Assembly (NCBI RefSeq): GCF_900324475.1
Contig: NZ_LT992502.1
Coordinates: 2,356,001 to 2,420,000, forward strand
Origin: Enterobacter bugandensis
Lineage (GTDB): Bacteria > Pseudomonadota > Gammaproteobacteria > Enterobacterales > Enterobacteriaceae
Direction of reading: 5' to 3'
Length of the DNA: 64,000 nucleotides
Part shown: positions 5,852 to 37,979 of the stretch, piece by piece
Position numbering within the stretch: the first letter of the stretch is position 1
Layout: the number at the start of each line of letters is the position of its first letter
Made by a program: the position numbers and the translations under genes
Notes under the pieces: generated by a model
The model's input: only the letters and a program-made list of their open reading frames with translations
What the model was told of the DNA's origin: nothing
Database searches by the model: none

Positions 5852-6726
5852 TCGAGCGTGACCAGAAACTTTTTAAGCACTTCTGAACGAATAATCCGGT
5901 GGCAAACCAGGGTGAGTTCGCTCTCCCGCAACCGGTCGAGGATGTCCACGTAGACGACATTCTCAACGCTCACTGCCTTTGCCGACGCGGGCAGCAGCGC
6001 CAGCCCAAATCCGGCCGCAACAAGGCTTATCACCGTGGGCACGTCGGTCGCATTTTGCACCACGTCCGGCTGAAAGCCCGCCCCGCTGCAGGCGTCATAG
6101 AAGTACTGCTCCAGCCCCATTCCCTCCGGATCGCGCAGCGAGATCCATTTTTCGTCTTTCACCGACGAAAGCGTCAGCGCGGATGATCCGGCGAGCGGAT
6201 GCTGACGAGAGAGCGCCAGCACCGTTTTCTCCGAGGTGAACGGCCGGCTTTGCAGATCGTCAGGCAGCGACGGCAGCGGCGCGCGGATGATGGCCACGTC
6301 CAGCTGGTTGCTCTGCACGGCGGCGTAGAGCGTCTGCACATTTCCCGTCATCAGGGACATGGTAATGGCCGGCCAGCGGCTGTGCATCTGGCGCAGCGCG
6401 GCGGGTAGCCTGCCGTCAAACATCGCACTCGACACGCACCCCAGGTTTAACTCCCCCTGCTCGCCCCGTGCCGTTTGTCTGGCATCCAGCACCGCCTGCT
6501 CGGTCAACGAGATGGCAAGCCGGGCTTTGACCAGAAACGCTTCGCCCGCGGGCGTCAGGGTTAAGCGGCGGTTCGCACGGCTGAAAAGCGTGACGCCTAA
6601 ACGTTCTTCCAGCGCCTTTATCTGCTGGCTCAGCGCCGGTTGGGCGATGTTCAGACGCTCGGCGGCCCGGTGCATGTGGAGCTCTTCGGCTACGACAATG
6701 AAGTGGCGCATCTGACGAAACTGCAC
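5842..6726 (-). CDS. LysR-family regulator divergent from aroY
   Basis: 294 residues, standard LysR length, opening MQFRQMRHFIVVAEELHMHRA with the helix-turn-helix RAAERLNIAQPALSQQIKAL. The C-terminal effector domain resembles the BenM/CatM group of aromatic-compound regulators (GFGLALLPAS near the end). It is transcribed divergently from aroY across 113 bp that hold a 7+7 bp inverted repeat, the classic arrangement for a LysR activator of the facing gene. I infer that it senses protocatechuate or a related hydroxybenzoate. Confidence 0.85.
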   Translation of the reverse strand: MQFRQMRHFIVVAEELHMHRAAERLNIAQPALSQQIKALEERLGVTLFSRANRRLTLTPAGEAFLVKARLAISLTEQAVLDARQTARGEQGELNLGCVSSAMFDGRLPAALRQMHSRWPAITMSLMTGNVQTLYAAVQSNQLDVAIIRAPLPSLPDDLQSRPFTSEKTVLALSRQHPLAGSSALTLSSVKDEKWISLRDPEGMGLEQYFYDACSGAGFQPDVVQNATDVPTVISLVAAGFGLALLPASAKAVSVENVVYVDILDRLRESELTLVCHRIIRSEVLKKFLVTLDHT

Positions 6727-8351: not shown

Positions 8352-8777
8352 TCATACACGTATTTTCTTTCCAAGCGTGGCGATATTTTCACCCGCCACG
8401 CGTTCAACAGTGAAACGATCGACGCTCAGCAATATGAGCATCAGCCCCCTGCCGCTCTCCAGCAGCGGCGACATTTCGCAGAAACGGTCTCGCCGGGCGA
8501 TCTCAAGACGCTCCTGCGGGAACGCGTCACCCGCGTCGGTAAAAACAAGGCAGACGTCATTGCCGCGGATGGCGAACTGTACGCTAAAGACGCTCGAATT
8601 ATCCTCATGAAGCGCGTAGCGGATGATATTCGTTGCCACTTCACAAACGGCGAGATCGAAGGCGAAACGCCACTCGTCATCGACGGGAAGCGCGCTCAGC
8701 CTGTCTCTCAGCCAGTCGGACAGCGGCGTCAGGGACGCGATCGCCGCCGGAAATTCAGCATGCTCTGGCCTCTGCAT
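8352..8777 (-). CDS. RsbW/SpoIIAB-like HATPase (anti-sigma-type serine kinase)
   Basis: 141 residues, a stand-alone GHKL ATPase of the anti-sigma kinase type. N box: FDLAVCEVATNIIRYAL (Glu and Asn for Mg-ATP); G1: VFTDAGDAFP; G2: ESGRGLMLI. Such proteins phosphorylate a STAS-domain antagonist and, when free of it, bind a sigma factor or another target. The start codon directly abuts the STAS stop (TAG then ATG), giving tight coupling. It is the last gene of the five-gene minus operon starting with opgC. No sigma factor is linked to it in this operon, so the output may be an enzyme rather than a sigma factor. Confidence 0.82.
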   Translation of the reverse strand: MQRPEHAEFPAAIASLTPLSDWLRDRLSALPVDDEWRFAFDLAVCEVATNIIRYALHEDNSSVFSVQFAIRGNDVCLVFTDAGDAFPQERLEIARRDRFCEMSPLLESGRGLMLILLSVDRFTVERVAGENIATLGKKIRV

Positions 8778-9116
8778 CTACTGCCCCAGCTGTGCAAGCG
8801 CGCTATGTTTATCCGGATAGATACGGAAGATGCGATCCATTCGGGTCAGGGTGAACATGTTCATGATCCCGGGGTTCAGAGAGCACAGCGCCATGTCGCC
8901 TTTCCCGTTCATCAGCTTAAACAACGACACCAGCATCCCCAGCCCGCTGCTGTCGATGAAATCCACTTTGCTAAAGTCGACGATTAAGGCTTTATGATCG
9001 CTGCCGATTTCCTCCGTCACGGACGCTTTAAACGTCGCAGCAACGGAGGCGTCCAGCCGTCGGACCGCAGGCGTGAGAATGTTGGCATGCGGTAATCGTT
9101 CGGTGTTAATTATCAT
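8778..9116 (-). CDS. STAS-domain anti-sigma-factor antagonist
   Basis: 112 residues from ATG 9116 (MIINTERLPHANIL); the upstream in-frame extension lacks a good ribosome site. The STAS core holds VDFIDSSGLGML, with the probable phosphoserine at Ser56, matching the DSSG of SpoIIAA and RsbV. In a partner switch the HATPase phosphorylates this Ser and the PP2C phosphatase removes the phosphate. Its start overlaps the end of the PP2C gene by 11 bp, and the HATPase gene follows with no gap, so all three parts are encoded together in stoichiometric order. Confidence 0.85.
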   Translation of the reverse strand: MIINTERLPHANILTPAVRRLDASVAATFKASVTEEIGSDHKALIVDFSKVDFIDSSGLGMLVSLFKLMNGKGDMALCSLNPGIMNMFTLTRMDRIFRIYPDKHSALAQLGQ

Positions 9117-10320
9117 TCTGTTCTCCCTGACGCTCAATCACGAGCAGTGACACGTCATCGGTTAAGGCGATCGGTTCATCACGATTTGCATTGCGCCAGC
9201 CGGTCAGGTGGTCACCGAACCGTGGCAGGAGCTGGTCAACGGGGAGCCGGGCATGCTCATGAAGCCAGCGTTCGAGACGTTGCGTGCCAAACTGCTCGCC
9301 GCTGACGTTCTCACACTCGGTAATACCGTCACTGAATAAGCATAAGCGATCCCCCGGATGGAGGGTAAACGCGACGTCTTCCCAGCTCAGATCCGGGATT
9401 AGCCCGACCGGCGGTCCGCCATCACCCACGGACGTGACGGCGCTGTCCGCATTTACAATGAAGGGAGTAGGATGCCCGGCCTGGCACAGCCACCCTTCAC
9501 CAGTCTCTGGATCGATCACGCCGTAAATGAGCGTGAAATAACTGGTGATGTCGCTCTCTTCACTGCAAAAGCGGCTGTTCAACATCCTGACAACCTCCGC
9601 AGGTGACTGAATCCCCCCCTCTTCGGTAAACAGAAAGCGATCCACCACCCGGCCATGTAAAAACTGGCGAGCCACCGCGAGGGACATCATCGCGGCCCCC
9701 ACGCCGTGACCCGAGACATCAACGCAATAGAATCCCAGATGTGAATCCAGAGGGAAAATATTGAACACATCGCCCGAAACCCAGGCTGACGGCAGGAAAA
9801 GCCAGTCGGAGAAGTAGTCGCCATAGCGTAAGCGGCGTGAAGGCAGCACCGAGTGCTGAACGCGCGCAGCCAGTTCCAGATCTTTTTCAATCTGATGCAA
9901 CGCTTCACTCAGGCGCTTGTTGTGCGCCGCGAGGGTCGCCTCCAGCGTCAGAATACGGACCCCGGCATGGAGCCGCGCCCGCAGTTCAGCCTGCTCAACG
10001 GGCTTACTCAAAAAATCATCCGCTCCGGCATCAAACCCCTGCGTCACGTCCCCGGCATTCTCGCGGGCCGTCAACAGGATGATATACACGTAGCGGCCAA
10101 ACTGACGGTTGCGGATGGTCTGACACAGCGTCAGTCCGTCCATTTCCGGCATTTCCCAGTCGCTTATCACCATGCTGACCGGCTGGCTGGACAAGATTTC
10201 CAGCGCGTCGACACCATTTTCCGCCTCGCTCACGATATATCCCCACTGGGTGAGCATTCGGGAGAGTAACCGACGATAAATCAGCGAATCTTCAACGATT
10301 AACACGTGCAGCGCCGACAT
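9106..10320 (-). CDS. Response-regulator PP2C-type serine phosphatase (REC-linker-SpoIIE)
   Basis: 404 residues. The receiver domain (residues 1-125) has acidic residues Glu10/Asp11, phospho-acceptor Asp54 in MVISDWEMPEMDGL, and Lys in DDFLSKPVE. A coiled linker (LEATLAAHNKRLSEALHQ) leads to a PP2C/SpoIIE domain with GFYCVDVSGHGVGAAMMSL and DRLCLFSDGITE as metal-binding motifs. It resembles RsbU-type and Pseudomonas HsbR-type phosphatases: phosphorylation of the receiver would activate dephosphorylation of the STAS protein encoded next. AGGAGG lies 5 bases before the ATG. No histidine kinase is in the same operon; the soluble hybrid kinase of the divergent operon (19229) is the obvious candidate partner. 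Confidence 0.88.
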   Translation of the reverse strand: MSALHVLIVEDSLIYRRLLSRMLTQWGYIVSEAENGVDALEILSSQPVSMVISDWEMPEMDGLTLCQTIRNRQFGRYVYIILLTARENAGDVTQGFDAGADDFLSKPVEQAELRARLHAGVRILTLEATLAAHNKRLSEALHQIEKDLELAARVQHSVLPSRRLRYGDYFSDWLFLPSAWVSGDVFNIFPLDSHLGFYCVDVSGHGVGAAMMSLAVARQFLHGRVVDRFLFTEEGGIQSPAEVVRMLNSRFCSEESDITSYFTLIYGVIDPETGEGWLCQAGHPTPFIVNADSAVTSVGDGGPPVGLIPDLSWEDVAFTLHPGDRLCLFSDGITECENVSGEQFGTQRLERWLHEHARLPVDQLLPRFGDHLTGWRNANRDEPIALTDDVSLLVIERQGEQNDN

Positions 10321-10329
10321 ACATCCCTC

Positions 10330-11229
10330 CTAAAGCGGTAAGAACCAGATGAGGCTCACGGTCCCTTCCCTGAATTTTGCATTCCCGTTGCCGTGCCCCG
10401 GATAGCGCGTTCCCGCATAGTTCGCGTACTGGATGGAGAACGAACCCGGCGTATAGCCGGCATAACCGAAGCTGTAGCTGTAATCGCCGTTCCAGGGCTG
10501 CTGCTGGCTGCTGTCCGGGAACCAGAATGCCGTCGCGCGAACGAAGAAATGTTGTTTGAAGGTGTAGCCGCAGCCGCCGAGCATGACGTTTTTATTTTTG
10601 CGGATGTCATCGCTGCTGAGGTCGTAGTAGCGCGGTACCCAGCTGTACCCGACCTGGCAAATGATGGAATCCCCTTTATTAATCAGGAGCGTGTTTTCAA
10701 CCGGTTTCGGTAGTGAAAACTTATAGGCCAGCGTGAAGGCGCCCTGTTCGAAATAGGTGTGTCGTCGGCTGCCCGATGTCCAGAAATGGTTATCGCCGTA
10801 GTTGCTGTAAACCAGACTCACGGTGTTGGCGTGCCAGTCATCGTAGCCGAAGCTGTAGCGAAAATCGGCGGAATAGCGGCTGGTGTCTCTGACCGGCAGT
10901 CGGGACGTAATGTTGGCAAACCAGAAGCTGTAGGGGGAATACTGAAGGCTGAGATTCAGCGTCTGGTTAATCTTTTTCTTTTCCGTGGCGGTGTCTGAAC
11001 TGTTAGGAATGCTCATCCACTGCTCTTTCAGTCCCGAGCTAAAGCTCAGCGCACCTGAGAATTTCTTGTCGTTACCCGAGAACAGGCGCCCCCAACGGCT
11101 GGTAAAAACGCCTGCCTGAACGGGTTCACCGTTCTTATCGCGCAGGGTTTCTTTATCACTGCTTTGCGCCGCCTCCGCGGCGGGTATCGCGGCAAGCAGC
11201 ACGCCCGCCAGAAGCCATTTTTCGCGCAT
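10330..11229 (-). CDS. Outer-membrane beta-barrel protein of the polysaccharide locus
   Basis: 299 residues from ATG 11229, which has AAGGA eight bases upstream; ATG 11238 sits directly on the same Shine-Dalgarno and is less likely. A signal peptide (MREKWLLAGVLLAAIPAAEA) is followed by many alternating aromatic strands (SYSFGYAGYTPGSFSIQYAN, RYSFGYDDWHANTVSLVY) and ends GTVSLIWFLPL, a plausible outer-membrane assembly signal. I do not recognise a named family beyond a YaiO-like impression of size and location. Its place between the OpgC acyltransferase and the partner-switch genes suggests a pore or scaffold for polymer export. Confidence 0.7.
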   Translation of the reverse strand: MREKWLLAGVLLAAIPAAEAAQSSDKETLRDKNGEPVQAGVFTSRWGRLFSGNDKKFSGALSFSSGLKEQWMSIPNSSDTATEKKKINQTLNLSLQYSPYSFWFANITSRLPVRDTSRYSADFRYSFGYDDWHANTVSLVYSNYGDNHFWTSGSRRHTYFEQGAFTLAYKFSLPKPVENTLLINKGDSIICQVGYSWVPRYYDLSSDDIRKNKNVMLGGCGYTFKQHFFVRATAFWFPDSSQQQPWNGDYSYSFGYAGYTPGSFSIQYANYAGTRYPGHGNGNAKFREGTVSLIWFLPL

Positions 11230-11240
11230 AACCGCCATCC

Positions 11241-12458
11241 TTAGTTAGGTATCCAGCGTGCGCCGACGTCGTATTTTGCCATCAGCCACAAAATACCCAG
11301 TGCCGCCGCATGCACTAACGTGTTCTCTATCCAGGCGTGACGCCATAAATCGAAGGTGATGAACTGACTCACCAGCAGCACCACGTAAACATGCAAAATA
11401 AAGGTATAGAGCGAGTGCTGCCCTAGCGGGATGAGGAACCATCCCAGCAGGCGGTTGAGCGGCGTCCAGCAATACGTCAGCACCAGGTAGACGGTGACCA
11501 TCAGGGCGATATCGTTCAATACCCGCACCGGGCCCAGCCCATTCTTCGCCGCCCAGGTGTGATAAAACGAATTGAAGCTGTCAGGCGGGATGACGTGCAT
11601 CAGCAGCGCGGGCGGCATAAACGGGTTGGTATGGTTCTGGGCAACAAATCCCAGCACCAGTGACACCATGACCAGCGCCACCACCACCCCTTTGCCCGGG
11701 GGCGTCCGGGCGAACGAGAGCAGTTCGGCTTTATACCAGCCGCTGGCCATGCCCAGCACAAAGATGAACTGCCAGGCGAGCAGCGGGAAGGCAAATTCGA
11801 ATTCCGACGGCGTCAGCCGAAGCGGCCACCGCTGCCACAGGCTGTACACCAGCAGCGACATCCCTAACAGCCACCAGACTTTTCCTTTCTGCAGCATCCC
11901 TAAAAATAGCGGGCTGAGTAGCAGCAAAAAGATATACAGTCCGAGAATTTGCGTCTGGTGGGGGCCGATCTGCAAATAGAGAATAATGTTGAACCAGGTC
12001 TCTTTAATTTGCGGCGTCACAGGATAAAGCGACCAGCTTTGACCTGAAAATCGGTCGGTAAAATGGGTGACCTCGAAAACGTTAATATGTGGGATATAGG
12101 CCAGCAGAATAAACGACACTATGATAATGATATTTACGCGATATATTTTCCATGCCCTGAGATAAAGCCCCCAGGAAACCGTAAGCAAAACCACTTTTTG
12201 CAGACGCGCGCGATTCAGCATTCCCAGCATAAACCCGGAGAGAATGACAAAGCCTTCTGCACCTGTTGTTAACCCAAAACGCTCCCAGGAGAATATATTA
12301 AATATCGACATCACCTCCGTATGCGCCACGACCATCATGACGAGGGCAATGCCGCGCATAAAGTCAATTCTCAGGTCACGGGCACCTGCAACGGAATACC
12401 TCCATGTTATTGATTTAGCGTCATCTTCTTGCGCAATCGACGGCGCAACATGGCTCAT
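11241..12458 (-). CDS. OpgC-family membrane acyltransferase
   Basis: 405 residues with about ten transmembrane segments. The opening YSVAGARDLRIDFMRGIAL followed by VMMVVAHTEV and GAEGFVILSGFMLG is the signature of the OpgC_C family, which adds succinyl groups to osmoregulated periplasmic glucans. Because no opgG/opgH pair is here and a cellulose-synthase-like gene diverges from it, I infer that it acylates the polymer made by this locus. Start ATG 12458 has AAAGGACA upstream. It leads the operon opgC-like, beta-barrel, PP2C, STAS, HATPase, with a two-base gap to the barrel reading frame. Confidence 0.82.
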   Translation of the reverse strand: MSHVAPSIAQEDDAKSITWRYSVAGARDLRIDFMRGIALVMMVVAHTEVMSIFNIFSWERFGLTTGAEGFVILSGFMLGMLNRARLQKVVLLTVSWGLYLRAWKIYRVNIIIIVSFILLAYIPHINVFEVTHFTDRFSGQSWSLYPVTPQIKETWFNIILYLQIGPHQTQILGLYIFLLLLSPLFLGMLQKGKVWWLLGMSLLVYSLWQRWPLRLTPSEFEFAFPLLAWQFIFVLGMASGWYKAELLSFARTPPGKGVVVALVMVSLVLGFVAQNHTNPFMPPALLMHVIPPDSFNSFYHTWAAKNGLGPVRVLNDIALMVTVYLVLTYCWTPLNRLLGWFLIPLGQHSLYTFILHVYVVLLVSQFITFDLWRHAWIENTLVHAAALGILWLMAKYDVGARWIPN

Positions 12459-12609
12459 AGGGTGTCCTTTGCCTGAAAACGAAAATTAAGGTCTAAATAA
12501 AGTAGATAGTCTAAAGGAATAGTAACTGCAATTTATCACCGGCAGATGAAACATATTAAGCAGAATTAAATCCAAATTAATCACCACTTCATATTAATAA
12601 AAACGACGC

Positions 12610-12637
12610 TGGACACTTTTATTCGGCGTTCTACACT
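12610..12637 (+). promoter_or_regulatory. Candidate sigma-70 promoter for the glycosyltransferase operon
   Basis: TGGACA (12610-12615), 16 bases, TACACT (12632-12637) in the AT-rich 280-bp divergent spacer 12459-12738. Transcription would start near 12644, leaving about 95 untranslated bases before ATG 12739. Apart from this and AT-richness I see no strong dyad in the spacer. Confidence 0.35.
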
Positions 12638-12738
12638 TATCTTAAATCTTGTTTACTCGCTATTTTCTTTCGCTTTTGGGCAACTGTCTGCGCAGCAGAA
12701 TGGGTCTGCATTTTCACGGAATCAGGAACGCCGGAACT

Positions 12739-14556
12739 ATGGATTTTTATTTTTCCCGTTTTGAACATCGTCGTCCTCCGGAACCGTTAACAACACCGCG
12801 TTGGGTCATGATGACCTGGCAGGTATTAGCGGTCGCGGCGCTTATTCTGGGTGCAAATTATATTTACTGGCGCTGGACCGCCTCCCTGAATACTGACGCA
12901 CTATGGTATGCCATACCGCTGGTCCTCGCCGAAACGCTGGCGTGGATAGGGACCGTGCTGTTTACCATCAACTTATGGAAAGAACAGGATCCCCCCCAGT
13001 GTCCGCCCCCCGGCGAAATCAACGAATGCCTGTTTCCGGAAGAGGCCGTAGAACCTCGTCCTGTTAAAGTGGATTTGTTCATTGCCACCTACTCGGAAGA
13101 CACCGAGCTGGTCAGGCTGTCCATTCGCGACGCCCTGAAGATGGCCTACCCGTACCCGATTGACTACCGGATCCACGTGCTTGATGACGGCCGCCGCCCG
13201 GAGATGAAAGCCGTCTGCGACGAGGAAGGCGTTAACTATATCAGCCGCCAGACCAACATCGGCTTTAAGGCCGGCAACCTGCGCAACGGTCTTGAGCAAA
13301 CCGACGGTGATTTCATTGTTATCTGCGACGCCGATACCCGCGTATTTCCCACCCTGCTCAGCCATACGCTGGGCTATTTTCGCGATCCGGACGTGGCCTG
13401 GGTGCAGACGCCGCAGTGGTTCTTCGACCTTCCGGAAGGAGAAAATCTTTCACGCTGGGGCCAGCGAAAAGCCGGAAAAGTGGGCTACGGTCTGGGCTGG
13501 CTGATTCAAAAGTGTGTTGGCCCGGTGACCGTAGGCCGCGACCCGTTTTTTAACGATCCGCGCATGTTCTATGACGTGATCCTGCGGCGGCGCAACTGGG
13601 CGAACGCGGCTTTCTGCTGCGGCGCGGCCTCCATCCACCGGCGCGAGGCGGTCATGCAGGCCGCGCTGAGAAGCTACGTCTGGTCCGTCGAAGAGGAGAT
13701 CCATCGCCATACCCGCGACATCCGCGATGAAGAAACCCGCGAAGCGCTGCAGGAGGCGATGCGCCCGCACGTGGCGTTTGACACCGAGCTCACCCCCTAC
13801 AAATTTCACGTCTCCGAAGATATTTACACCTCGGTGCTGCTGCACGGTGACGCCGCGCGACGCTGGCGCTCGGTCATGCATCCGCGGGTGGAGTCGAAGA
13901 TGCTCTCTCCGCAGGATATGCTGACCTGGATGATCCAGCGCTTTAAATACGCCGCCGGCTCGCTGGATATTTTGTTCCATGACAATATCTTCAGCCGTCG
14001 CCGCTTCCGGCTTTCCCTCCCCCAGACGCTGATGTATGCCACCACCTTCTGGTCTTACATGGCCTGCGTGTGGAACACGGTATTTTTGATTTCGCCCATT
14101 ATCTATCTGTTCACCGGCATTCCGCCGGTATCCGCATGGTCGACGCCGTTCTATCTCCACTTTCTCCCCTTTTTTATCTTCTCTGAACTGGCGTTTATGT
14201 TCGGGACATGGGGGATCTCGGCCTGGGACGGCAGGGCCTCTTACCTCTCCTTCTTTTCCATGAACCTGCGCGCGCTCAATACCGTGCTGCGGGGCGAGCA
14301 GATCAAATTTCACGTCACGCCAAAAGAGCGGCAGACGGGCCGTTTTCTCTACCTGGTGAAGCCGCAGATTGCCATTGTGGTGCTGACCCTCGCAGGGCTT
14401 ATCTGGGGCGGTATTCAGGTGGCGCGTGGACAGGTGGACGACCCCTCCGGCTACGTCATCAATATTTTCTGGGGAGGGGTGAACATCGCCGCCATGCTGC
14501 CGCTGATTTTCGCGGCCATGTGGACGCCCGCCGAAGAGGATGAGGTCACCCAATGA
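12739..14556 (+). CDS. Cellulose-synthase-like family 2 glycosyltransferase
   Basis: 605 residues from ATG 12739 (AGGAA 10 bases upstream); an in-frame TTG at 12649 would begin right at the predicted transcript start. Two N-terminal membrane helices, a cytoplasmic GT2 domain with VLDDGRRP (Asp149/150), CDADTR (Asp197/199), TPQWF and VSEDIYT (Asp361 the likely base), then at least four C-terminal helices. The processive Q-x-x-R-W motif appears as QRFKY (400-404). There is no PilZ domain, so direct c-di-GMP control like BcsA is not expected. It probably makes and extrudes a beta-linked polymer. The downstream DUF3131 gene overlaps by ATGA. Confidence 0.88.
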   Translation: MDFYFSRFEHRRPPEPLTTPRWVMMTWQVLAVAALILGANYIYWRWTASLNTDALWYAIPLVLAETLAWIGTVLFTINLWKEQDPPQCPPPGEINECLFPEEAVEPRPVKVDLFIATYSEDTELVRLSIRDALKMAYPYPIDYRIHVLDDGRRPEMKAVCDEEGVNYISRQTNIGFKAGNLRNGLEQTDGDFIVICDADTRVFPTLLSHTLGYFRDPDVAWVQTPQWFFDLPEGENLSRWGQRKAGKVGYGLGWLIQKCVGPVTVGRDPFFNDPRMFYDVILRRRNWANAAFCCGAASIHRREAVMQAALRSYVWSVEEEIHRHTRDIRDEETREALQEAMRPHVAFDTELTPYKFHVSEDIYTSVLLHGDAARRWRSVMHPRVESKMLSPQDMLTWMIQRFKYAAGSLDILFHDNIFSRRRFRLSLPQTLMYATTFWSYMACVWNTVFLISPIIYLFTGIPPVSAWSTPFYLHFLPFFIFSELAFMFGTWGISAWDGRASYLSFFSMNLRALNTVLRGEQIKFHVTPKERQTGRFLYLVKPQIAIVVLTLAGLIWGGIQVARGQVDDPSGYVINIFWGGVNIAAMLPLIFAAMWTPAEEDEVTQ

Positions 14557-15872
14557 GGATACGTGATGCCCTGCTGCCCGCGCGCAGCTACCTCACCATT
14601 TTGCTCGGGTTCCTGCTCGGCTTTGCCATTGTGGTCTGGGTGGAGAAACAGCTGCCCACGCGCGTGGAAAGCAGCGGCGGCATCGCGCTCAGCAAAGACT
14701 TCCCGCCGCTGCCTGCGAAACGCGCCCTGACCTATGACGAAGCCATCTGGGCGCGGGTCGCCTGGCAATACTACGTGAATAATACCCAGCCAAACGGGCT
14801 GGCGAATGCCAGCGACGGTGAACCCTGGCTGAGCCTATGGAGCGTGGGAAGCTACCTGTTGGCGACCGCTGCCGCAGAGCAGCTCAACATTATTTCCGCC
14901 GATGAGTTCGACGAGAGGATCGGTACGGCCCTGTTCGCGCTGGGGCAGCTGCCGCTCAACGAGCGAGGCCTCCCAGCCGCGTATTACCATGCCGACACCC
15001 TGAAAATCCTCGGCAAACCCGACGCCTCGGCAATTGGGCTGAGCCGCCTGCTGACGGCGCTTCAGACCCTCCTGTGGCGCTATCCTCAGCACGCGGCGGC
15101 TATCCACGATCTCTTCAGCCTCTGGAACACCGGCGCTCTGATTGAACATAACGTCCAAAGCCAGGCGGCCGTGCCGCTCCATCATTGGACGCTGACCGAT
15201 GACGAACAGCGAGACAGCTTTGGCTACCGTCTCTATGCCAGCCATACGCTGCGCCTGATTGACAGCGCTGCAGGCCTCGCGGTGACCAACCCGCCTGAAG
15301 GGCAAAAGATGATCGATCTGGACGGCGTGATGGTGCCGGATGAAGGGCTACGCACGCCCTGGGGCAAGCAAACCTCCCTGATCAGTCTCCCCTACCTGTT
15401 AACCGGCCTTGAGCTGGGCTTTGACGCGCAGAGCGCTGAGATTGCGTGGCGGATTATGCAGATCCAGCAGCGGCGTCATAGCCTGCGCAGCCCAAAACAG
15501 CCTGTCAGCACGGATTACGCCGAACCGGCGCCGGATTACGTCAACGATCTGCCGAACAGGCAGCCGGTACAGGCGCGCAACCTGCGCGACGAGGTGCCGG
15601 AGAAAGTGGCAATTACCTCCACCCGCACCGCGTTTGCCTGGTATGCCCTGTTCCGCAACAGCTGGAGCGAAGCGCTGCGCCAGCAGGTTCTGCCGCTTCA
15701 GGTACCGGGTAAAGGCTGGCAGCGCGGATTAAATCTTAACAACAGCGTCAATGCCGTCGTGGACGCCGATACCAATGCCATTGTGCTGGAAAGTCTGTCT
15801 TACATCGCGCATGGTCAGATGCTCTGTCTGGCCTGCCTCTACACTTCCCCCTCAGCAGGAGCAACGCCATGA
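14553..15872 (+). CDS. DUF3131 protein 1, membrane-anchored and divergent
   Basis: 439 residues with one N-terminal membrane anchor (SYLTILLGFLLGFAIVVWV) and a large periplasmic part. It carries the family opening WARVAWQYYVNNTQPNGLAN and PYLLTGLELGF, but the FQLWGF motif of the two downstream paralogues is absent; FGYRLYASHTLRL stands in its place. The middle contains a Pro-rich insert (near EPAPDYVNDLPNRQP). Function unknown; DUF3131 domains look like alpha-helical barrels often linked to polysaccharide genes, which is my inference from Trp/Tyr-rich repeats. It overlaps its neighbours by four bases at both ends, so translation is coupled. Confidence 0.8.
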   Translation: MRIRDALLPARSYLTILLGFLLGFAIVVWVEKQLPTRVESSGGIALSKDFPPLPAKRALTYDEAIWARVAWQYYVNNTQPNGLANASDGEPWLSLWSVGSYLLATAAAEQLNIISADEFDERIGTALFALGQLPLNERGLPAAYYHADTLKILGKPDASAIGLSRLLTALQTLLWRYPQHAAAIHDLFSLWNTGALIEHNVQSQAAVPLHHWTLTDDEQRDSFGYRLYASHTLRLIDSAAGLAVTNPPEGQKMIDLDGVMVPDEGLRTPWGKQTSLISLPYLLTGLELGFDAQSAEIAWRIMQIQQRRHSLRSPKQPVSTDYAEPAPDYVNDLPNRQPVQARNLRDEVPEKVAITSTRTAFAWYALFRNSWSEALRQQVLPLQVPGKGWQRGLNLNNSVNAVVDADTNAIVLESLSYIAHGQMLCLACLYTSPSAGATP

Positions 15873-17416
15873 AGCCACGATCCCCGATCCTTTTCCACCT
15901 GCTCACGGGAATAACGATCTGCTGGCTGGCGTTATCGACCGTGCGTGCGGACACCGAGCTTCCTGCATCAGGTTACTCCCCGCGCAGCGGCGAGCTGACG
16001 GTCCGAGAGATGACCATCGCGAAAAACGCCTGGCAGTATTTCGTCACCAACTATCAGCCCACGACGGGCCTGGTGAATGCGGTCAACAAATTTCCCTCCA
16101 CCACCATGTGGGACAGCGCCTCCTATCTGGCCGCCCTGACGGCGGCGCGCGAGCTCGGGATCATTGATAAAGCGGAATTTGACCGCCGGATGCTGAAATT
16201 TCTCGCCACGTTAAACACCCTGGTACTGTTCCGCAACGAGCTACCCAACAAGGCCTATAACACCATCAGCGCCCAGAAGGTGGACTACACCAACAAGCCC
16301 GGCGAAATTGGCTTCTCGGCGCTGGATATCGGGCGAATGCTGGTCTGGCTGAAAATCGTCAAAGAGCGCTATCCGGAATACGGCAACAGCATTGATAACG
16401 TGGTGCTCGGCTGGGATTTCAGCCACGCGATCGACCCCTGCGGCACGCTGTACGGGGCCTATCTCGAGAACGGCCAGCCGAAGTACGTTCAGGAAGGTCG
16501 GCTGGGCTATGAAGAGTACGGCGCGGCCGGGTTCCAGCTTTGGGGGTTTAATACCTGTAAAGCCAGCCGTCCGCAGCCTTATGAGCTGGCCGAAATCTAC
16601 TGCGTGCTGGTCCCGTACGATACGCGCGACCCGCGCAACACGTCGCAGCATAACTACGTGGTGACGGAATCCTACCTGCTCTACGGGCTGGAGTTCGGCT
16701 TTGATAAACCGACCGACCGGGATAACGCCCCGCGCGACTACTCCCTGACGTGGATGAAAAACTTTGCTGACCGCGTTTATCAGGCTCAGGAGAACCGCTA
16801 TACCATTACCGGCGTCCTCACCGCGCGCTCCGAGCACCAGCTCGATAAGGCTCCTTACTTCGTCTATGACACCGTCTTCAGCGACGGATACAACTGGAAC
16901 ACCATTACCGATAAAGGCCAGTTCGTCCCCAACGCTGCCGCGATATCGCTGAAGGCGGCGCTGGGCATGTGGGTGTTGTGGAACTCCCCCTATACCGACC
17001 GCCTGCTGAATACGATTGAGAATGCCAACGAAGAGGGAAAAGGCTACTACGAAGGGCTGTATGAAAACGGTGACGGCCCGATCAAAGAGTTCACCGCGAA
17101 TAATAACGGCATCATGCTGGAAGCCCTGCTGTTCAAGAAAGAGGGAAAACTGCTGGCCTTCAACACCGACAACCCAAAGAGCAAGGATTTTGCCCCGTCG
17201 CTGTGGGATCGCAAGCTGCTCGATCAGTTTGAAGAGAACAACGCGCTGCGCAGCCGTCCGTTCCTTAGCAGCACACCGGCCGTAAAAAGCTGGTGCGACC
17301 GGACCGGCGTCACGCAGCGTACCAAACCCGCCTGTCAGGCCTGTCAGTGCGCGTCATGCAGCGTGGACGAGCCCGTTAAACTGCCTCCGGTGACTGCGCA
17401 ATGCTTAAAACCTTAG
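15869..17416 (+). CDS. DUF3131 protein 2, exported, with Cys-rich tail
   Basis: 515 residues with a signal peptide ending near LSTVRAD. Full set of family motifs: NAWQYFVTNYQPTTGLVNAV, TTMWDSASYLAAL, EYGAAGFQLWGF, LLYGLEFGFDKP, GYNWNT and an acidic YYEGLYENGDGP near the end. The last ~40 residues hold six cysteines, four of them in CQACQCASC, unlike the paralogues. This could be a disulphide-locked tail, a metal site or an attachment point. It is encoded between two paralogues with ATGA coupling upstream and a 16-bp overlap downstream. Enzymatic activity on the polymer is possible but unproven. Confidence 0.82.
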   Translation: MKPRSPILFHLLTGITICWLALSTVRADTELPASGYSPRSGELTVREMTIAKNAWQYFVTNYQPTTGLVNAVNKFPSTTMWDSASYLAALTAARELGIIDKAEFDRRMLKFLATLNTLVLFRNELPNKAYNTISAQKVDYTNKPGEIGFSALDIGRMLVWLKIVKERYPEYGNSIDNVVLGWDFSHAIDPCGTLYGAYLENGQPKYVQEGRLGYEEYGAAGFQLWGFNTCKASRPQPYELAEIYCVLVPYDTRDPRNTSQHNYVVTESYLLYGLEFGFDKPTDRDNAPRDYSLTWMKNFADRVYQAQENRYTITGVLTARSEHQLDKAPYFVYDTVFSDGYNWNTITDKGQFVPNAAAISLKAALGMWVLWNSPYTDRLLNTIENANEEGKGYYEGLYENGDGPIKEFTANNNGIMLEALLFKKEGKLLAFNTDNPKSKDFAPSLWDRKLLDQFEENNALRSRPFLSSTPAVKSWCDRTGVTQRTKPACQACQCASCSVDEPVKLPPVTAQCLKP

Positions 17417-18795
17417 CCAGAGGGCTCGCGGGAATACTCCTTGCAGGCGGGGTCATCTATGCCCTGTTTGGCCATCAGGGAGCAGGCTGGCGCTGGCTAA
17501 TCCACGGCGGCTGGCACTCCAGCGCGCGTATCGCCGCCCTGACGCCGGAAGAGCAGACGTGGGCGACGATCGCCTGGCGCTATTTCGTCAATAATACCCA
17601 GCCGCAAACGGGCCTGGTCAACGGGAGCGACAAACAGCCTCGCGTCACGCTCTGGCAAATGGGCGATACGCTTATCGCCCTGCTGGCGGCAAAAGAGCTG
17701 GGGCTGATTGAGGACGCCGAGTATGACGCTCGCTTAACCCGTCTCATGGGCACTCTAAACCGCCTGATGCTGACCGATGCCCGAACGCCGGGTCGACTCT
17801 ATTCCAGCCAGACGGCGACGCCAGTCGACTTTAGCGGCAAGCCCAGCAAAAACGGCTGGTCCGCGCGCGACATGGCGCGTCTGATGCTCGCCCTGCGCCT
17901 TACCGCACAGCGGGAGCCGCAGTACAGCGAATACCTGGATAAAATTATCCTGCGCTGGAATTTCTGCCCGGTCATCGATAGCGAAGGCGAACTGTGGTCC
18001 TCTTCCCTGCAAAACGGTCAGCCGGTCGTGCGGGAGGAACTGCGGCTGGGCGAAAGTGAATATGCCGCGACGGCGTTTCAGCTGTGGGGATTTTCCCCGG
18101 ATAAAGCGTTTACGCCCCCGGCGCACCACGTCATCATCGCCCAGCGGCGTCTGGCCGTCGATGCCCGCGATCCGCGCACCACGTGGCAGCCCTCTCTGAT
18201 TACCACCCTTCCCTATATGCTGCCGGGCCTGGAGTTTGGCTGGGAACCAGAAGGCGTTGCGGCCGATCTGCAACAGCGTCTGCGCAAGCAGGCCGAAAAC
18301 GTCTGGCTGAGCCAGAAGACCCGCTGGGAGACCGACAAAATCCTGACGGCCAGGGCAGATTTCACGCTCTCTCAGGCGCCCTGGCATATCCAGGATACCG
18401 TCTGGGGAAATGGCTATGCCTGGAACTCTGTCGGAGACGATGGCCGGGACTACACCCGTTTCGCGCAGGTATCGACCAAAGCGGTTTTTGCCCTGTGGGC
18501 CCTGTGGGACACCCCGTACACCGACGTGCTGATGACGGTCACCAAACACCTTAACGATCCGCAGAAAGGCTGGTATGAAGGCCGTCAGGAAGCCACGGGC
18601 GATACCAACGCTGCCTTAACCCTCTCGACCAACGCCACGGTGCTGGAAGCCCTCTTCTTTAAACACAACGCCGGGCCTCTGTTTGACGTGCGTCGGTCGA
18701 AGAAAGAGAGCTACTTCTCACGCCGTCTGGCAGAGCAATACACGCCCATCGGGCACTGTCTGCCGGGCGAAAGCACCATAAGGAGGACGCCGTGA
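17401..18795 (+). CDS. DUF3131 protein 3, membrane-anchored
   Basis: 464 residues with an N-terminal hydrophobic segment (GLAGILLAGGVIYALFG) acting as anchor or uncleaved signal. Family motifs: IAWRYFVNNTQPQTGLVNGS, EYAATAFQLWGFS, LPGLEFGWEPEG, GYAWNSVGDDGRD and GWYEGRQEATGD. It is closer to protein 2 than to protein 1, so the three arose by duplication followed by specialisation. Start ATG 17401 lies 16 bases inside the previous gene. The next gene starts at GTG 18792 inside its stop (GTGA). Confidence 0.82.
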   Translation: MLKTLARGLAGILLAGGVIYALFGHQGAGWRWLIHGGWHSSARIAALTPEEQTWATIAWRYFVNNTQPQTGLVNGSDKQPRVTLWQMGDTLIALLAAKELGLIEDAEYDARLTRLMGTLNRLMLTDARTPGRLYSSQTATPVDFSGKPSKNGWSARDMARLMLALRLTAQREPQYSEYLDKIILRWNFCPVIDSEGELWSSSLQNGQPVVREELRLGESEYAATAFQLWGFSPDKAFTPPAHHVIIAQRRLAVDARDPRTTWQPSLITTLPYMLPGLEFGWEPEGVAADLQQRLRKQAENVWLSQKTRWETDKILTARADFTLSQAPWHIQDTVWGNGYAWNSVGDDGRDYTRFAQVSTKAVFALWALWDTPYTDVLMTVTKHLNDPQKGWYEGRQEATGDTNAALTLSTNATVLEALFFKHNAGPLFDVRRSKKESYFSRRLAEQYTPIGHCLPGESTIRRTP

Positions 18796-19217
18796 AGTTC
18801 TATCGCGATCTGTTTGAATCCAGTCTGAACCGCGTCTTTCCGAATAATGAAAAAACCGCGTTTTTTCAGACGTTCTATGACGCCTTCGTCCATATGTCAC
18901 CCGAAACCGAGGCACATTTTTCTCGTCTGCCGGATCGGGAGGGCCAGCAGACCCTGTTTAAAAGCTTCTTCGCCATGCTTGCGGTCGACGGCGCCCTGAT
19001 CGTCCCTGATTTTCTCGAGCGCCTGGCGCGTGAGCAAAGCGACGACGGCCTCCACCTTCCCCCGCGGTTTTTTGCCCTTTGGCGCGAAGCGATGTTGAAC
19101 GCGGTGAGCCTGCGCGATCCGCAGTGCGACGATGAGATCCTCACCGCCTGGGCCATGGCGATCGCGCCCGGGCTGGAATACCTTCGCCGACAGGCAGAAC
19201 TGCACTACCGCGCGTAG
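18792..19217 (+). CDS. Globin-like protein, probably without haem
   Basis: 141 residues from GTG 18792, preceded by AGGAGG five bases upstream. The helical pattern fits a bacterial sensor-type globin: [20 protein letters not shown] (B/C region), LFKSFFAML (E region), then [17 protein letters not shown], which matches the G-x-x-PPxxxxLW segment that follows helix F in such globins. At the position I would expect the proximal His (before S-D-D-G) stands Gln82. RsbR stressosome proteins have a similar haem-free globin domain. Placed immediately before a soluble hybrid kinase, it may be that kinase's sensory or docking partner. Family call moderate; haem loss is inferred from a hand alignment. 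Confidence 0.55.
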
Positions 19218-19228
19218 GGGGAATCACG

Positions 19229-21895
19229 ATGAGTTCATTCACGTACGATCTTAACGCGCTGCCGGCCGCCGTCATGATTTATGACCGCGAGGAACGCCTT
19301 CAGGCCTGGAATCACAACGTGGCCCTGTTTTATCCGGTCATTACCCCGTGGCTGACGGTGGGAACGACTCTTGAAGCGCTGGCGGAACGCTTTATCGACG
19401 CCGTTTACAACGTCGACCCCGGCCTGCGGCAGACGCTGCGCGAGTCGATCGTGCGCAACTGTCGGCAGGATAAACACTGCGAGGTGCGCCAGGCGGGCCA
19501 GCGGCGGATCTTCGTCCAGCATCAGCGGCTTGCGGACGGCGGTATTGTCAGCCTGCACAGCGATGTTACAGAGCTGGATGAAGCGCAGCGCGCGCGCCAC
19601 CAGCTGCATGACGACTTTCTGCTGACGGCGGAATCCATTCATATCGGGATTTGGGACTGGCAGGTTTCCGGCGACACACTCCAGGTCAACGATACCCTGC
19701 TTGCCATGCTGGGCCAGTCGCGCACACAGTGGCGATATCCGGTGCGTTTTCTCCTCAATCAGGTCCACGAGGACGATCGCGCAGCGCTACGCAAGGCGCT
19801 GCACGCTTCGAAGCAGGATCATCGTCCGGTCTTTGAATGTGAAATTCGCGTGCATCACCCTACCGAAGGACTGCGCTGGATGCTGCTGTCCGGCCAGGTG
19901 GTTACGCTCTCCATTGAGGGGAACGCCGAGCGCGTCATTGGTACGCTGCAGGATATAACGCGGCGCAAAGAGGCTGAAATTCAGGCTTTCGCCTCGGCCA
20001 TTGAGGCACAAAAAGCCAATGAGGCAAAAAGCGCGTTCCTGGCGAATATGAGCCATGAAATTCGTACCCCGATGAACGGCATTATTGGCATGACCCAGCT
20101 GTGCCTGGATACGTCTCTGAGTGCCGATCAGCGTGACTATCTGACCCTGGTGATGAGCTCCGCCCAGTCGCTTCTGCATATCATCAACGATATTCTCGAC
20201 TTTTCCCGAATTGAAGCCGGAAAAGTGGAGCTGGAGTCGGAACCCGTACCTGTCCGCCCCTTTATTCAGTCGCTCATTCGCCCGCACATGCCGGGGGCGA
20301 GCGAAAAAGGCATCGAGCTGCTGGTTGATATTGCGCCCGACGTTCCCGACGTGCTGCTGGTTGACGGCGCGCGGCTGCGCCAAATCCTGACCAATCTGCT
20401 GGGCAACGCGCTGAAATTTACCCATCAGGGAGAAGTTATCCTGGTGGTTGAGCCCGGCGATAGCGCGGGCAGATGGCGTTTTCGCGTGCGCGACAGCGGC
20501 ATTGGCATACCGGCAGATAAGCAGAAGGCCATTTTTGAAGCCTTCAGCCAGGCGGACAACTCAACCACCCGCCGCTACGGCGGTACGGGGCTCGGGCTAA
20601 CCATCTCGGCAAGACTGGTTGCGGCCATGGGGGGCGAATTAACGGTCTCCAGCGAGCCGGGAAAAGGAAGCGAATTTTCGTTCTCGCTGCCGCTGGCAGC
20701 GCAGACCCTTGCGTCCGGAGAGCGCCCACATAGCCAGCGCTTTAACGGTGAATCCGTACTGGTGGTTGATGATAACGCGACCAACCTGCGGCTGCTGTCC
20801 GCGATGCTCAGCCAGATGGGACTGAAACCCACCTGCGTTAACAACGCCAGCGAGGCCATTGATCGGGTTAGAACGGGAACAGCGTGGCCCCTGATCCTGC
20901 TGGACGCGCAGATGCCGGATATGGACGGCGTGTCTCTGGCCCTTGAGCTTTCGGTTCTGCCGCAGGTTGCTGAAAGTCATATCATCATGCTGAGCTCCAT
21001 GAGCCGACATTTTGATATCAATATGCTGAAGCGGATCGGAATCAAGAACTATCTGCATAAGCCTATCGCCCAGGATGAATTACATCAGGCGATTGCCGCC
21101 GCGTTTGAACGTTCGCCAGCACCCGTGGGTGAAAGCACGCCCGCGCCTGTCGCCTCGCCTGCAGCCACGGGCCTGCGGATCCTGCTGGCTGAAGATAATC
21201 TGGTCAACCAGAAGGTCGCCGCGCGCCTGCTCGAGCGGCTCGGTCATAGCTGTCAGATCGTCGACAATGGCGTCGCGCTGCTTGAACGCTGGCGCGCGGA
21301 TACGTGGGACGTTTTACTGATCGACCTTCAGATGCCAGAGATGGACGGTGAGACCGCCATTCGCCTGCTTCGTGAAGAAGAGCAGTCTCGGCCCGGACCG
21401 CCTCAACCCACCGTCGCCATGACCGCACACGCCATGCAGGGGGATAAAGAGCGCTGCCTGAACATGGGGTTCGACGGCTACATTGCCAAACCCATCAGCC
21501 AGGAGCGTCTCGCTGAAGAGATTGCCCGCGTGCTCCAGCACCACGAAGACGCCTCCGGTTTTCCGGATGAAGCACGCCTGCTGAAGCAGTGCGCTGACGA
21601 TCCCGCCCTGGTGCAGGAGCTGCTGGCCCTGTTTGGCGAAGGGCTAAATGAAGCAATCAAGACCATTACCCAGGCGATCGACAGCAACGACCGCGAGGCG
21701 CTGCGACGCGCGGCCCACAAGCTGCGCGGAGAAGCCGTCACCCTGGACTTCAGCACGCTCGCACAGCAGCTGCAGGTGCTGGAAAGCGACGCGCATGCGC
21801 TGGATGGGCACCAGCTTGCGGCCCTGAATGAACATCTTCGCCAGGAATCGCTGCGCCTGATGGCGTGGCTCAACGCGCGGGGGGTAAACGAATGA
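19229..21895 (+). CDS. Cytoplasmic hybrid histidine kinase (PAS-PAS-HisKA-HATPase-REC-REC-HPt)
   Basis: 888 residues and no membrane segment. A divergent PAS domain (about 5-120) and a second PAS (about 130-250, ending [14 protein letters not shown]) precede the HisKA box [15 protein letters not shown] with His276. The ATPase has [19 protein letters not shown] and [13 protein letters not shown]. Receiver 1 has Asp559 ([11 protein letters not shown]), receiver 2 Asp699 ([11 protein letters not shown]), and the HPt domain His830 (AAHKLRGEA). This is a full BarA-like phosphorelay. The HPt can pass phosphate to a separate receiver, and the REC-PP2C protein of the divergent operon is the nearest candidate. 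Shine-Dalgarno GGGGGAA; ATGA overlap with the GH2 gene. Confidence 0.9.
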
Positions 21896-24066
21896 ACGCT
21901 CGCAACTGCACCCTGCTCGTTGCCCTGTTGACCACCCACGCGGTGGCGAACTCTGCGCCGGTCAGCTGGTCTCTGGCCGGAGAATGGCAGGTACAGGATG
22001 CCAATGACAGCGCACATCCTGCCGCATCAGGTTGGCACCCGCTTCAGGTTCCTGCCAACTGGTACAGCGCCGGGTACGATCATCAGGGCGCGCTGTGGTA
22101 CAAGCACGCGTTTTCCCTGCCCGTGCAGGCCCCCGACGTGATGAGTACCCTGGTGTTTGACGGCGTCGATTACTTGGCAGAGGTGACCCTGAACGGCCAG
22201 CCGCTGGGCAAGCATGAGGGCTACTTTCAGCGCTTTTCGCTGGACGCCAGCCCGGCGTTACAACGTCACAATAGGCTCGTCGTCAGGGTAGACAGCCCCT
22301 ACGAAGATCCGCACAAGATCTGGCCTTTGCATAAAACGGTCATGAAGGGGGTTCTGAATCAGCATGACACGCGTCCCGGTGGCGCCTGGTCGCCGGAAGG
22401 ACAGGATGCTAACTCGGGCGGCATCTGGGCCCCGGTCCGGCTGCACCTTAGCCGGGGCGCCACCCTTGATGAGACCATCCTGCGGCCCGACTGGTCGCAG
22501 GGGCTGACTCGCCCGACGCTAAAAGCGGATATTCGCTATCGCGCGCTCGATCAGGGCCCGGCGACCGTGCGGCTCACCGCCACGCCCGCCAACTTCAGCG
22601 GCAGGCCCTATCAGGCTGACTTTCCGGTTACTCTCGAAAGCGGTGCCCATTCCGTGCAGGTGACGCTGCCCATGCCGAAGGCAAAGCTGTGGTGGCCGAT
22701 CGGCACGGGGAAACCCCACCTGTATACCGTTCGCGTGGCGTTGCGAGATGCAAACGGCTTAATGGACACGGCGGTAACCCGCACCGGGCTGCGCAAAATA
22801 GTCGAGCAGCCCGACAATAAGGGCTGGCTCATAAACGACAGGCGCCTTTTTATTAAGGGCAGCAATTACATCGGTTCCCCCTGGCTCGGCACCATGACGC
22901 GGAAAAAATACCGACGCGACCTTCGTCTGGTGGAAGCCATGAACGCCAACGCCATACGCGTGCACGGACACGTTGCCGGACGTGCGTTGTATGACGTGGC
23001 CGATGAGATGGGCATGATGATCTGGCAGGATGTTCCGCTGCAGTGGGGCTACAATAACAGTGCGGCTTTCACGGAAAATGCGGTTCGACAGACGCGGGAG
23101 ATGATCGAACAGTTTGGCAATTCCCCCGCCATCATCGTCTGGGGCGGGCATAACGAACCGCCGTGGAATTCGCCGTGGATGGAAAAACGCTTCCCGGACT
23201 GGAATAAAGATCTGAATCGCGAGCTCACGCAAAAGGTGGCGGATACGCTTGCCGAAGATACCTCCCGCATCGTGCACCGCTTCTCCGCCGTTGAGGAGCA
23301 TTACTGGGCGGGCTGGTACTTCGGTACCGTGCGCGACCTGCTGGCCCCAGCCAAAACGGGGATCATCACCGAGTTCGGCGCGCAGGCGCTTCCCCGCCTG
23401 TCAACGCTAAAAACCATCATCCCGGCGGCGTCGCTCTGGCCAAAAACGACCGCCGCCGACGATCCCGGCTGGACCGTCTGGAAATACCATAATTTTCAGC
23501 CCTTCCAGACCTTTAAGTTCGCCGGTATTTCGCGCGGAAAGAATATTCAGACGATGATACGCAATACCCAGGCGTACCAGTCTCAGCTGGTGGCCACGGC
23601 GGCCGAAAGCTATCGCCGACAGCGATACCAGCCGGTGACGGCCCTGTTCCACTTTATGTTTGTGGAAACCTGGCCCTCCATCAACTGGGGCGTAGTGGAC
23701 TACCTTCGTAAACCTAAAGCCGGGTTTTACGCACTCCAGCGCGCGTACCAGCCTGTTTTGCCGTCCATCGAACCGGTCACCGCGCAGTGGCAATCCGGCG
23801 CGGCGGCGACCGTGCGCCTCTGGGCCATCAACGACACCTGGAAACCGTGCAGCGAATGCCGCCTGACCTGGCGTATCACGCAGCGCGACAAGGTGCTGGC
23901 TAAAGGCACGACGACGATGATGATCGCAGCAGACTCGGGAACGATGGTCAAAACGCTGACGGCTACGCCCGTGGGCCAGGACGACGTGTCGATTCGGTTT
24001 ACGATTGAAAACAGCGCGGGAAAAATTGTCGGTGAAAATCAGCGCACGGAGTCCGTCATAAAGTGA
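21892..24066 (+). CDS. Exported glycoside hydrolase family 2 (beta-mannosidase / exo-glucosaminidase type)
   Basis: 724 residues from ATG 21892, overlapping the kinase stop by ATGA; the in-frame GTG 21865 is less likely. A signal peptide ending near AVANSA is followed by a jelly-roll sugar-binding domain, immunoglobulin-like domain and TIM barrel. [10 protein letters not shown] carries the acid/base Glu422 and [10 protein letters not shown] the nucleophile Glu494. The N-E-P variant is typical of the mannosidase/glucosaminidase side of GH2 rather than LacZ. Periplasmic location and operon position suggest trimming or recycling of the polymer made by this locus, as BcsZ does for cellulose. Confidence 0.85.
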
Positions 24067-24160: not shown

Positions 24161-24448
24161 ATGACTGCACACATTTCCAAAGATCCTTTACATGGCGTAA
24201 CGCTGGAGATGATGGTCAACGCCCTGGTGGCGAAGTATGGCTGGAGCGAATTGGGCGACCGCATCAAAATTAACTGTTTCAGAAAAGATCCCAGCGTTAA
24301 ATCGAGCCTGAAATTCCTGCGCCGCACCCCGTGGGCGCGCGCGGAAGTTGAAGCCCTGTATCTGGATTCCCTCAACGATGAGGAAAGCGCAGAACAGGCG
24401 GCGCCCGCCTTTAATCCCTGGGCTAACAGTCGGATTATCAAGAGCTAA
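24161..24448 (+). CDS. VF530 (DUF2132) family small protein
   Basis: 95 residues with the family core [20 protein letters not shown] and [26 protein letters not shown]530 proteins are small, basic and have a DNA-binding-like fold; their role is not established. It lies eight bases before digH in the same direction and is probably co-transcribed with it. Confidence 0.85.
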
Positions 24449-24455
24449 TACGCAA

Positions 24456-25754: not shown

Positions 25755-25790
25755 ATCAGGCAGAAACACCCCGTTTCTGCCTGATTTCTT
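25755..25790. terminator. Bidirectional-type terminator between digH and dsbG
   Basis: A perfect 13-bp stem (25755-25767 with 25773-25785), loop ACCCC, followed on the plus strand by TTTCTT. It lies between two convergent genes, so it probably ends both transcripts; the T-run favours digH. Confidence 0.75.
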
Positions 25791-36383: not shown

Positions 36384-36420
36384 AGATACCTCTGCCTGAC
36401 TTCTTTTTATGATGTGCGAA

Positions 36421-36443: not shown

Positions 36444-36449
36444 GATGGG

Positions 36450-37979
<1,530 letters not shown>

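Follow-up and report, generated by a model that had tools for sequence, protein, structure and literature searches.

The stretch of DNA considered here (the window) comprises 64,000 nucleotides of Enterobacter bugandensis contig NZ_LT992502.1 (positions 2,356,001 to 2,420,000), and its subject is a locus at 8352-24066 of the window that is filled by 12 open reading frames (ORFs) arranged as two divergent, tightly packed groups. On balance, this locus probably encodes an envelope β-glucan synthase system whose parts are split over several genes. A CelA-like GT2 would polymerise glucose from UDP-glucose and deliver the chain to the periplasm, where D2, the second of three DUF3131 proteins (D1, D2 and D3), would act as a separate protein related to the GH189 domain of cyclic β-1,2-glucan synthase (CGS), with the anchored D1 and D3 as partners. 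Using a retaining mechanism with E322 as the putative nucleophile and E215 as the putative acid/base, D2 may cut and rejoin the chain, setting its length or closing rings. An OpgC-family enzyme would then add acyl groups, probably succinyl, a 12-stranded barrel would release oligosaccharides from the cell, and a GH2 enzyme would trim or recycle them. As for control, a hybrid kinase would pass phosphate from its Hpt domain to the receiver of a PP2C phosphatase, which together with an opposing HATPase kinase would set the phosphorylation of a STAS protein with a presumed target. A more specific version is put forward tentatively, the chances being somewhat against it as a whole: DUF3131 may be a second retaining family beside GH189 that works in trans, as a dissociated cyclic-glucan synthase. 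The polymerase would hand its chain to separate periplasmic transglycosylases, and the product would be a cyclic or size-set glucan that is acylated and probably β-1,2-linked, glycogen-fed in some hosts and switched by serine phosphorylation.

The DUF3131 proteins carry much of the argument. D1 (14553-15872, plus strand; PF11329 E 4.3e-64) has an N-terminal membrane anchor with a hydrophobic segment at residues 12-30, D2 (15869-17416, plus strand) is a predicted secreted protein, and D3 (17401-18795, plus strand; PF11329 E 9.1e-95) begins with a hydrophobic segment. The D2 model has an (α/α)6 fold like that of the cyclisation domain of TiCGS and of the SGL enzymes. Compared with the PDB, its 15 best rows by Z (29.7 to 20.9) all fall in one group of glucan enzymes, namely GH189 (8wy1), the whole cyclic-glucan synthases 8rf9, 8rfe and 8rf0, the β-1,2-glucanases 5gzh, 5gzk, 8xul, 5z06, 8xuj, 8xuk, 6imu and 6imw, and three "putative glucoamylases" (4qt9, 4gl3 and 3eu8); the next rows score 20.5 and 18.5. 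The same group fills the 20 best rows of a Foldseek search with the model. At the sequence level, a DUF3131 profile (A1) run against PDB sequences at E up to 1 returned three matches, all of them cyclic β-1,2-glucan synthases (6.5e-5, 0.0059 and 0.006), and a 2827-aa protein that carries GH94 and PF10091 domains exceeds the cut-off of the Pfam DUF3131 model. Profile-profile comparison of D2 residues 40-180 with the middle domain of the synthase gave P 6.5e-15. By these profiles, D2 is homologous to the CGS middle domain in its N-terminal half only, and the DUF3131 proteins resemble the ring-closing part of a cyclic-glucan-making enzyme.

According to the available text of PMC10834661, the nucleophile of TiCGS is E1442 and its acid/base E1356; E1400 and H1536/H1537 lie close to them. 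When the numbering is shifted by 1003, these residues fall on the SEAR (E1356), FEY (E1400), ISES (E1442) and AHHQG motifs of the alignment. When the insertion in the synthase was removed, full-length hhalign comparison set the SEH motif of D2 (E322) on the GH189 nucleophile and its TANNNG motif (N411/N412) on AHHQG (two His) in three of three settings, while alignment by eye set GYEEY (E215 or E216) on SEAR and TES (E267) on FEY. Conservation of residues was followed across 25 of the 29 loci L001-L029 (L012, L027, L028 and L029 left out), and the three glutamates E215, E267 and E322 are present in all 25 D2 copies. They are lost from 21 of the 25 D1 copies and kept in the four from Yersinia and Budvicia; the D1 of the window has R-L-L-T at the places of D2 residues 215/216/267/322. 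Most D3 copies carry S, L/T/M and D at the corresponding positions, the copy in the window S, L and D. In a wider set of 232 sequences, which omits pieces shorter than 300 aa or with stops, an 80% identity filter kept 71; 48 of these have all three glutamates, 14 have none and 9 have a mixture. Pairwise Fisher tests for their co-retention gave p values of 8e-10, 6e-9 and 9e-13, which shared ancestry inflates. Within these 71 sequences E216 is tied to E215 (p 8e-4) and not to E267 or E322 (p 0.16 and 0.13); in the unfiltered 232 it is linked to E267 and E322 at p about 1e-5, a value likewise inflated by shared ancestry.

Some observations weigh against the proposed kinship and role of D2. The C-terminal half of D2 alone gave no significant profile match to GH189, and with the synthase insertion left in, the C-terminal part of D2 aligned elsewhere so that E322 did not fall on the nucleophile. 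DUF3131 also occurs outside the context of such loci, including in fusions beside other GT2 or deacetylase proteins, and a Bathyarchaeota contig holds DUF3131 relatives at 26% identity and less (L030, 10001-12555). The likeness to the GH189/SGL clan (GH144, GH162 and GH192-194) lies in the predicted fold, the collinear N-terminal half and a glutamate that aligns to the GH189 nucleophile once the synthase insertion is removed, and DUF3131 would be a separate family. With CGS (also NdvB; GT2-GH189-GH94) the locus shares a GT2-type polymerase and a GH189-type (α/α)6 domain for making glucan from UDP-glucose, and the available text of PMC11842490 adds that the CGS product can be succinylated. Unlike CGS, which is one polypeptide, the locus divides these parts among separate ORFs, its GH189-like part occurs three times, in secreted or anchored form, and it adds a GH2 enzyme, OpgC, a barrel and a partner switch; no GH94 family was found among the 12 proteins.

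Further features of the family deserve mention. A midpoint-rooted DUF3131 tree groups the D1 copies in one clade and the D2 copies in another, without separating D3 from D2 (one D2 copy, from L010, carries the label D3). The three DUF3131 genes of the distant locus L065 fall, in gene order, nearest the D1, D2 and D3 copies, respectively, which suggests an old three-gene arrangement. Residues 489-497 of D2 form a C-terminal cysteine cluster, C-x2-C-x-C-x2-C, that is exact in 44 of 93 homologues and may be a disulfide or metal site. The genome that holds the GT2-DUF3131 trio at L065 has a fourth DUF3131 gene at L066 (8279-12165), beside a hybrid kinase and near genes for an RTX-repeat protein and an ABC/HlyD exporter. 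At L077 (4096-10094), DUF3131 carries an N-terminal extension of 470-490 aa and lies beside a deacetylase-GT2 fusion; here A-H stands instead of E-E at the place of the acid, with E267 and E322 kept (row L048).

The CelA-like GT2 (12739-14556, plus strand) is the putative polymerase. Among 25 relatives, 24 or all 25 retain the residues of its DDG, DAD, SED and QRFKY motifs, the exception being a protein that was not aligned at that place; cellulose synthases carry QxxRW where this GT2 has QRFKY. CelA/BcsA is its best NCBIfam model (TIGR03030, E 4e-57, far under the cut-off), and its PDB matches at E 0.001 are cellulose synthases only. These matches favour a rival reading, possible but rather doubtful and near to that of the initial annotation, in which the GT2 makes and secretes a cellulose-like exopolysaccharide with β-1,4 or mixed linkage that DUF3131 proteins release or trim as BcsZ-like hydrolases and OpgC acylates. 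BcsZ and the GH8 enzymes also have an (α/α)6 fold and appear in the Foldseek list, and the UDP-glucose supply genes described below are compatible with cellulose as well. Beyond the GT2 core, the locus differs from the Bcs cellulose synthase in its QRFKY motif and in its gene content. The initial annotation had set it apart from bcs for lack of BcsB, BcsC and PilZ, and this is borne out: neither PilZ, BcsB nor MdoG families were found among the 12 proteins at E 0.001, and NCBIfam models for BcsC and OpgH gave none either (for the kinase and the PP2C protein among the best 25 of 157 and the best 25 of 95 matched families, respectively). Among 16 genomes of relatives with the locus, BcsB occurs elsewhere in 15; the nearest of them, G001, has no BcsB match.

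The nature of the polymer is indicated by loci in Yersinia and Budvicia. In four of four such loci (L021-L024), tblastn places an α-glucan phosphorylase gene upstream of the barrel gene and a nucleotidyltransferase between the STAS and HATPase genes; both are absent from the window. The families were assigned on L021, where the phosphorylase gene (13-2307) overlaps the barrel gene and scores 1078 bits with TIGR02093 against a cut-off of 553, and where the closest solved structure to the UDP-glucose-pyrophosphorylase-like product of 5008-6171 is the UTP-glucose-1-phosphate uridylyltransferase 8x7s (E 1.4e-135). Relatives of such a uridylyltransferase-like protein also occur in L065, L072 and L073. 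Because the two genes make a supply from glycogen through glucose-1-phosphate to UDP-glucose and on to polymer the simplest reading, gene content strongly suggests that the product would be a glucan. A mannose-containing or other heteropolymer, in which GH2 would act on a linkage of its own and DUF3131 on the same glycan, is by comparison very unlikely. It would accord with the GH2 enzyme (21892-24066, plus strand; NEP and TEFG motifs, signal-like N-terminus), whose best solved matches are β-mannosidases (5n6u, E 1.3e-35), and with the best, sub-threshold NCBIfam model of the nucleotidyltransferase, a mannose-1-phosphate guanylyltransferase. The L021 protein is nevertheless far closer to the uridylyltransferase (E 1.4e-135 vs 9e-30), its gene shares an operon with an α-glucan phosphorylase, and the locus has a single GT. 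Homology does not tell the substrate of the GH2 enzyme.

OpgC (11241-12458, minus strand; OpgC_C, PF10129 E 1.9e-51) links the locus to the osmoregulated periplasmic glucans (OPGs), which in E. coli are linear β-1,2-glucans according to the available text of PMC11842490; OpgC is known to succinylate them, as the accessible part of PMC4726272 states. Since OpgC and the relatives of DUF3131 are both known from β-1,2-glucans, a β-1,2 linkage may by analogy be proposed for the polymer. One might then ask whether the locus remodels ordinary OpgGH glucans, with GT2 or DUF3131 branching, cyclising or re-cutting them in the periplasm and OpgC succinylating them. The presence of OpgC, the occurrence of MdoG/OpgG elsewhere in 15 of the 16 genomes and the likeness of DUF3131 to enzymes that act on the OPG backbone speak for this; intact GT2 motifs, the glucose-1-phosphate and UDP-glucose supply genes in Yersinia and Budvicia and one genome (G568) that has the locus without a MdoG match speak against it, and it is judged improbable. 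The locus shares OpgC and a putative envelope glucan with the OPG system and differs in that no OpgG or OpgH was found in it.

For the split synthase system, the barrel (10330-11238, minus strand) bears on the size of the product. The initial annotation had called it an outer-membrane barrel, and the 302-aa protein is indeed modelled with 12 strands, its N-terminal helix being signal-peptide-like. The model is nearest NanC, KdgM and Tsx; the oligosaccharide porins NanC and KdgM lead narrowly, and other barrels follow closely. Pores of the NanC/KdgM type pass oligosaccharides, and KdgM has been solved with oligogalacturonate. Because pores of this kind pass oligosaccharides, the modelled barrel would suit a short or cyclic product more readily than a bulky exopolysaccharide. 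Given the NanC/KdgM-like barrel and the resemblance of DUF3131 to enzymes that cut or rejoin β-1,2-glucans, a short or cyclic envelope glucan would fit at least as well as an exopolysaccharide. Weak barrel matches also occur in the C-terminal part of 521-700-aa proteins at L078, L079 and L080.

The regulators comprise a HATPase_c_2 serine kinase of the RsbW/SpoIIAB kind (8352-8777, minus strand; PF13581 E 7.1e-15), an RsbV/SpoIIAA-like STAS protein of uncertain true start (8778-9137, minus strand; PF01740 E 4.9e-17) and a receiver-PP2C (SpoIIE) phosphatase (9106-10320, minus strand; PF00072 and PF07228). N50, D81, G83, G109 and G111 of the HATPase are conserved in 22 of 22 aligned relatives and D62-S63-S64 of the STAS protein in 23 of 24, the 24th not being aligned there; in the PP2C protein, D54 is found in 25 of 25 and D184, D201, D331, D388 and D389 in 24 of 25, the last again not aligned. 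The metal-binding aspartates, phosphosite and ATP site of a partner switch, which we take these residues to be, are thus intact. The hybrid kinase (19229-21895, plus strand), PAS-PAS-HisKA-HATPase-REC-REC-Hpt with no predicted membrane segment, has the motifs SHEIRTP (His), DAQMP and DLQMP (the two receiver Asp) and HKLRG (Hpt His). The globin-like protein (18792-19217, plus strand) matches PA3967 (1tu9, E 3.7e-9); where PA3967 has the proximal His, Gln82 stands in 14 of 14 copies. It might conceivably act as a non-heme sensor, as the N-terminal part of RsbR does. The SypA/SypE switch is linked to polysaccharide and, like SpoIIAA/RsbV, has a STAS protein controlled by a serine kinase and a phosphatase. 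Unlike these, the locus has kinase and phosphatase on separate proteins and a receiver on the phosphatase, and no sigma factor family was found among its 12 proteins. The available text of PMC10120452 describes SypA phosphorylation as set by serine kinase and phosphatase activities in biofilm control.

The D2 search of genome records found 27 loci, 24 of them enterobacterial; gene content was compared over these 24 and three plasmid loci (L001-L026 and L029). The DUF3131 trio, GT2 and regulators occur together in Enterobacterales: all 12 families are found in 14 of the 27, and GT2, D1, D2, D3, a hybrid kinase and GH2 in every one, with OpgC in 22 and the globin in 16. The PP2C tally of 27 takes in L016, cut by a contig end, where the match must be the receiver of the kinase with no separate PP2C; the HATPase is absent from L006 where its contig begins, L029 is full of frame breaks, and the L021-L024 entries for the kinase stand for another hybrid kinase, 33-34% identical. 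Globin is missing from the loci of Pantoea piersonii, Ca. Pantoea deserta, Erwinia and Siccibacter, and the three Yersinia loci and that of Budvicia have another gene order with neither OpgC nor globin in the stretch examined. Recurrence over 27 loci at 26-99% protein identity shows that the block is not due to chance. The loci of E. sichuanensis and E. vonholyi share the flanks of the window, with proteins 92-99% identical and the HATPase 80-81%, which places the window in an Enterobacter similar to these; other copies lie on plasmids of Salmonella, Pantoea and Chimaeribacter and on chromosomes. Among 198 genomes sampled from the family of G001, 15 have a DUF3131 match and 12 have full-length genes, exactly three each, while 12 of 295 from the order have a match (two with three copies, eight with four, two single and weak). 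The phylum sample of 398 genomes gave 36, of which 15 have matches confined to proteins of synthase size, one has a weak match in a 572-aa frame and 20 have matches in full or partial DUF3131 genes; this GT2 adjoins DUF3131 in 13 of the 20 (flanks of differing length). Distant GT2-DUF3131 loci at L065, L069, L072, L078 and L079 each have at least one of PP2C, STAS and HATPase, and L073 and L080 have none of these in the stretch examined. The earlier proposal of synthesis, acylation, export and trimming of one polymer under phosphorelay and partner switch holds in that a single co-conserved block, distinct from bcs and opgGH, is supported; the synthesis genes can, however, occur in a locus where these regulators are not seen. 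In Pantoea stewartii DC283 the HATPase and PP2C genes have IS66 genes between them (L100, 1496-4060), and in another P. stewartii record the OpgC matches fall into two separate pieces (L006, 2327-3723).

The system had been called undescribed, which stands for its function and not for its gene set. The available text of PMC3401170 lists OpgC, a cellulose-synthesis protein, hybrid kinase, anti-sigma-type regulators, β-galactosidase and serine phosphatase in Salmonella SGI3, for which it suggests a role in plant interaction, and that of PMC12974863 lists OpgC, a cellulose-synthesis protein, hybrid kinase, anti-sigma-type regulators and three DUF3131 in Klebsiella pneumoniae block 3b. In their available portions, neither assigns an enzyme mechanism or an identity for DUF3131. 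Accessible literature on DUF3131/PF11329 yielded no treatment of function, that on OpgC with cellulose synthase and STAS, or on GH189 with its clan, no account of such a locus, and the main text of the SGL-clan paper (PMC12102758) no mention of "DUF" or "PF11329". According to the available text of the 2025 review (PMC11842490), GH189 is to receive a clan once a further retaining family that is structurally similar is known, and DUF3131 is a candidate. The proposal assigns a testable enzyme class to a large "unknown function" family: of 7996 scored candidates, 2328 were accepted for D2 at E 0.001. If true, Enterobacter, Klebsiella, Pantoea and Salmonella would have a further glucan system beside cellulose and OPGs, on chromosomes and plasmids and governed by an unusual control circuit.

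The remaining claims of the initial annotation concerned architecture and family assignment. What kind of protein DUF3131 is, and the glucose supply genes in Yersinia and Budvicia, had escaped it; its calls of OpgC, the REC-PP2C/STAS/HATPase triad, GT2, three DUF3131 proteins, globin-like protein, hybrid kinase and GH2 were confirmed by family searches. The two coupled groups diverge from an A+T-rich spacer (12459-12738, 37.9% G+C), which is exactly 280 bp, as had been stated, if GT2 starts at ATG 12739, the start annotated in a Salmonella plasmid homologue. A promoter scan of the spacer gave a single sigma-70-like site scoring not above shuffles. The near-universal overlap of starts and stops amounts to six overlapping junctions, of 4 bp at GT2/D1, D1/D2, D3/globin and kinase/GH2 (start ATG 21892), 16 bp at D2/D3 and 32 bp at STAS/PP2C with the STAS start as called, and four gaps of 0, 9, 2 and 11 bp. 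Directly downstream lie genes for GHL10 glycosidase-like (24348-25748), DsbC-like (25789-26547) and DsbD-like (27207-29231) proteins, the first two of which also adjoin the locus in L004 and L015. Further on, GH32, PTS EIIBC and LamB-type porin genes (33607-37967) perhaps form a sucrose or fructoside uptake cluster.

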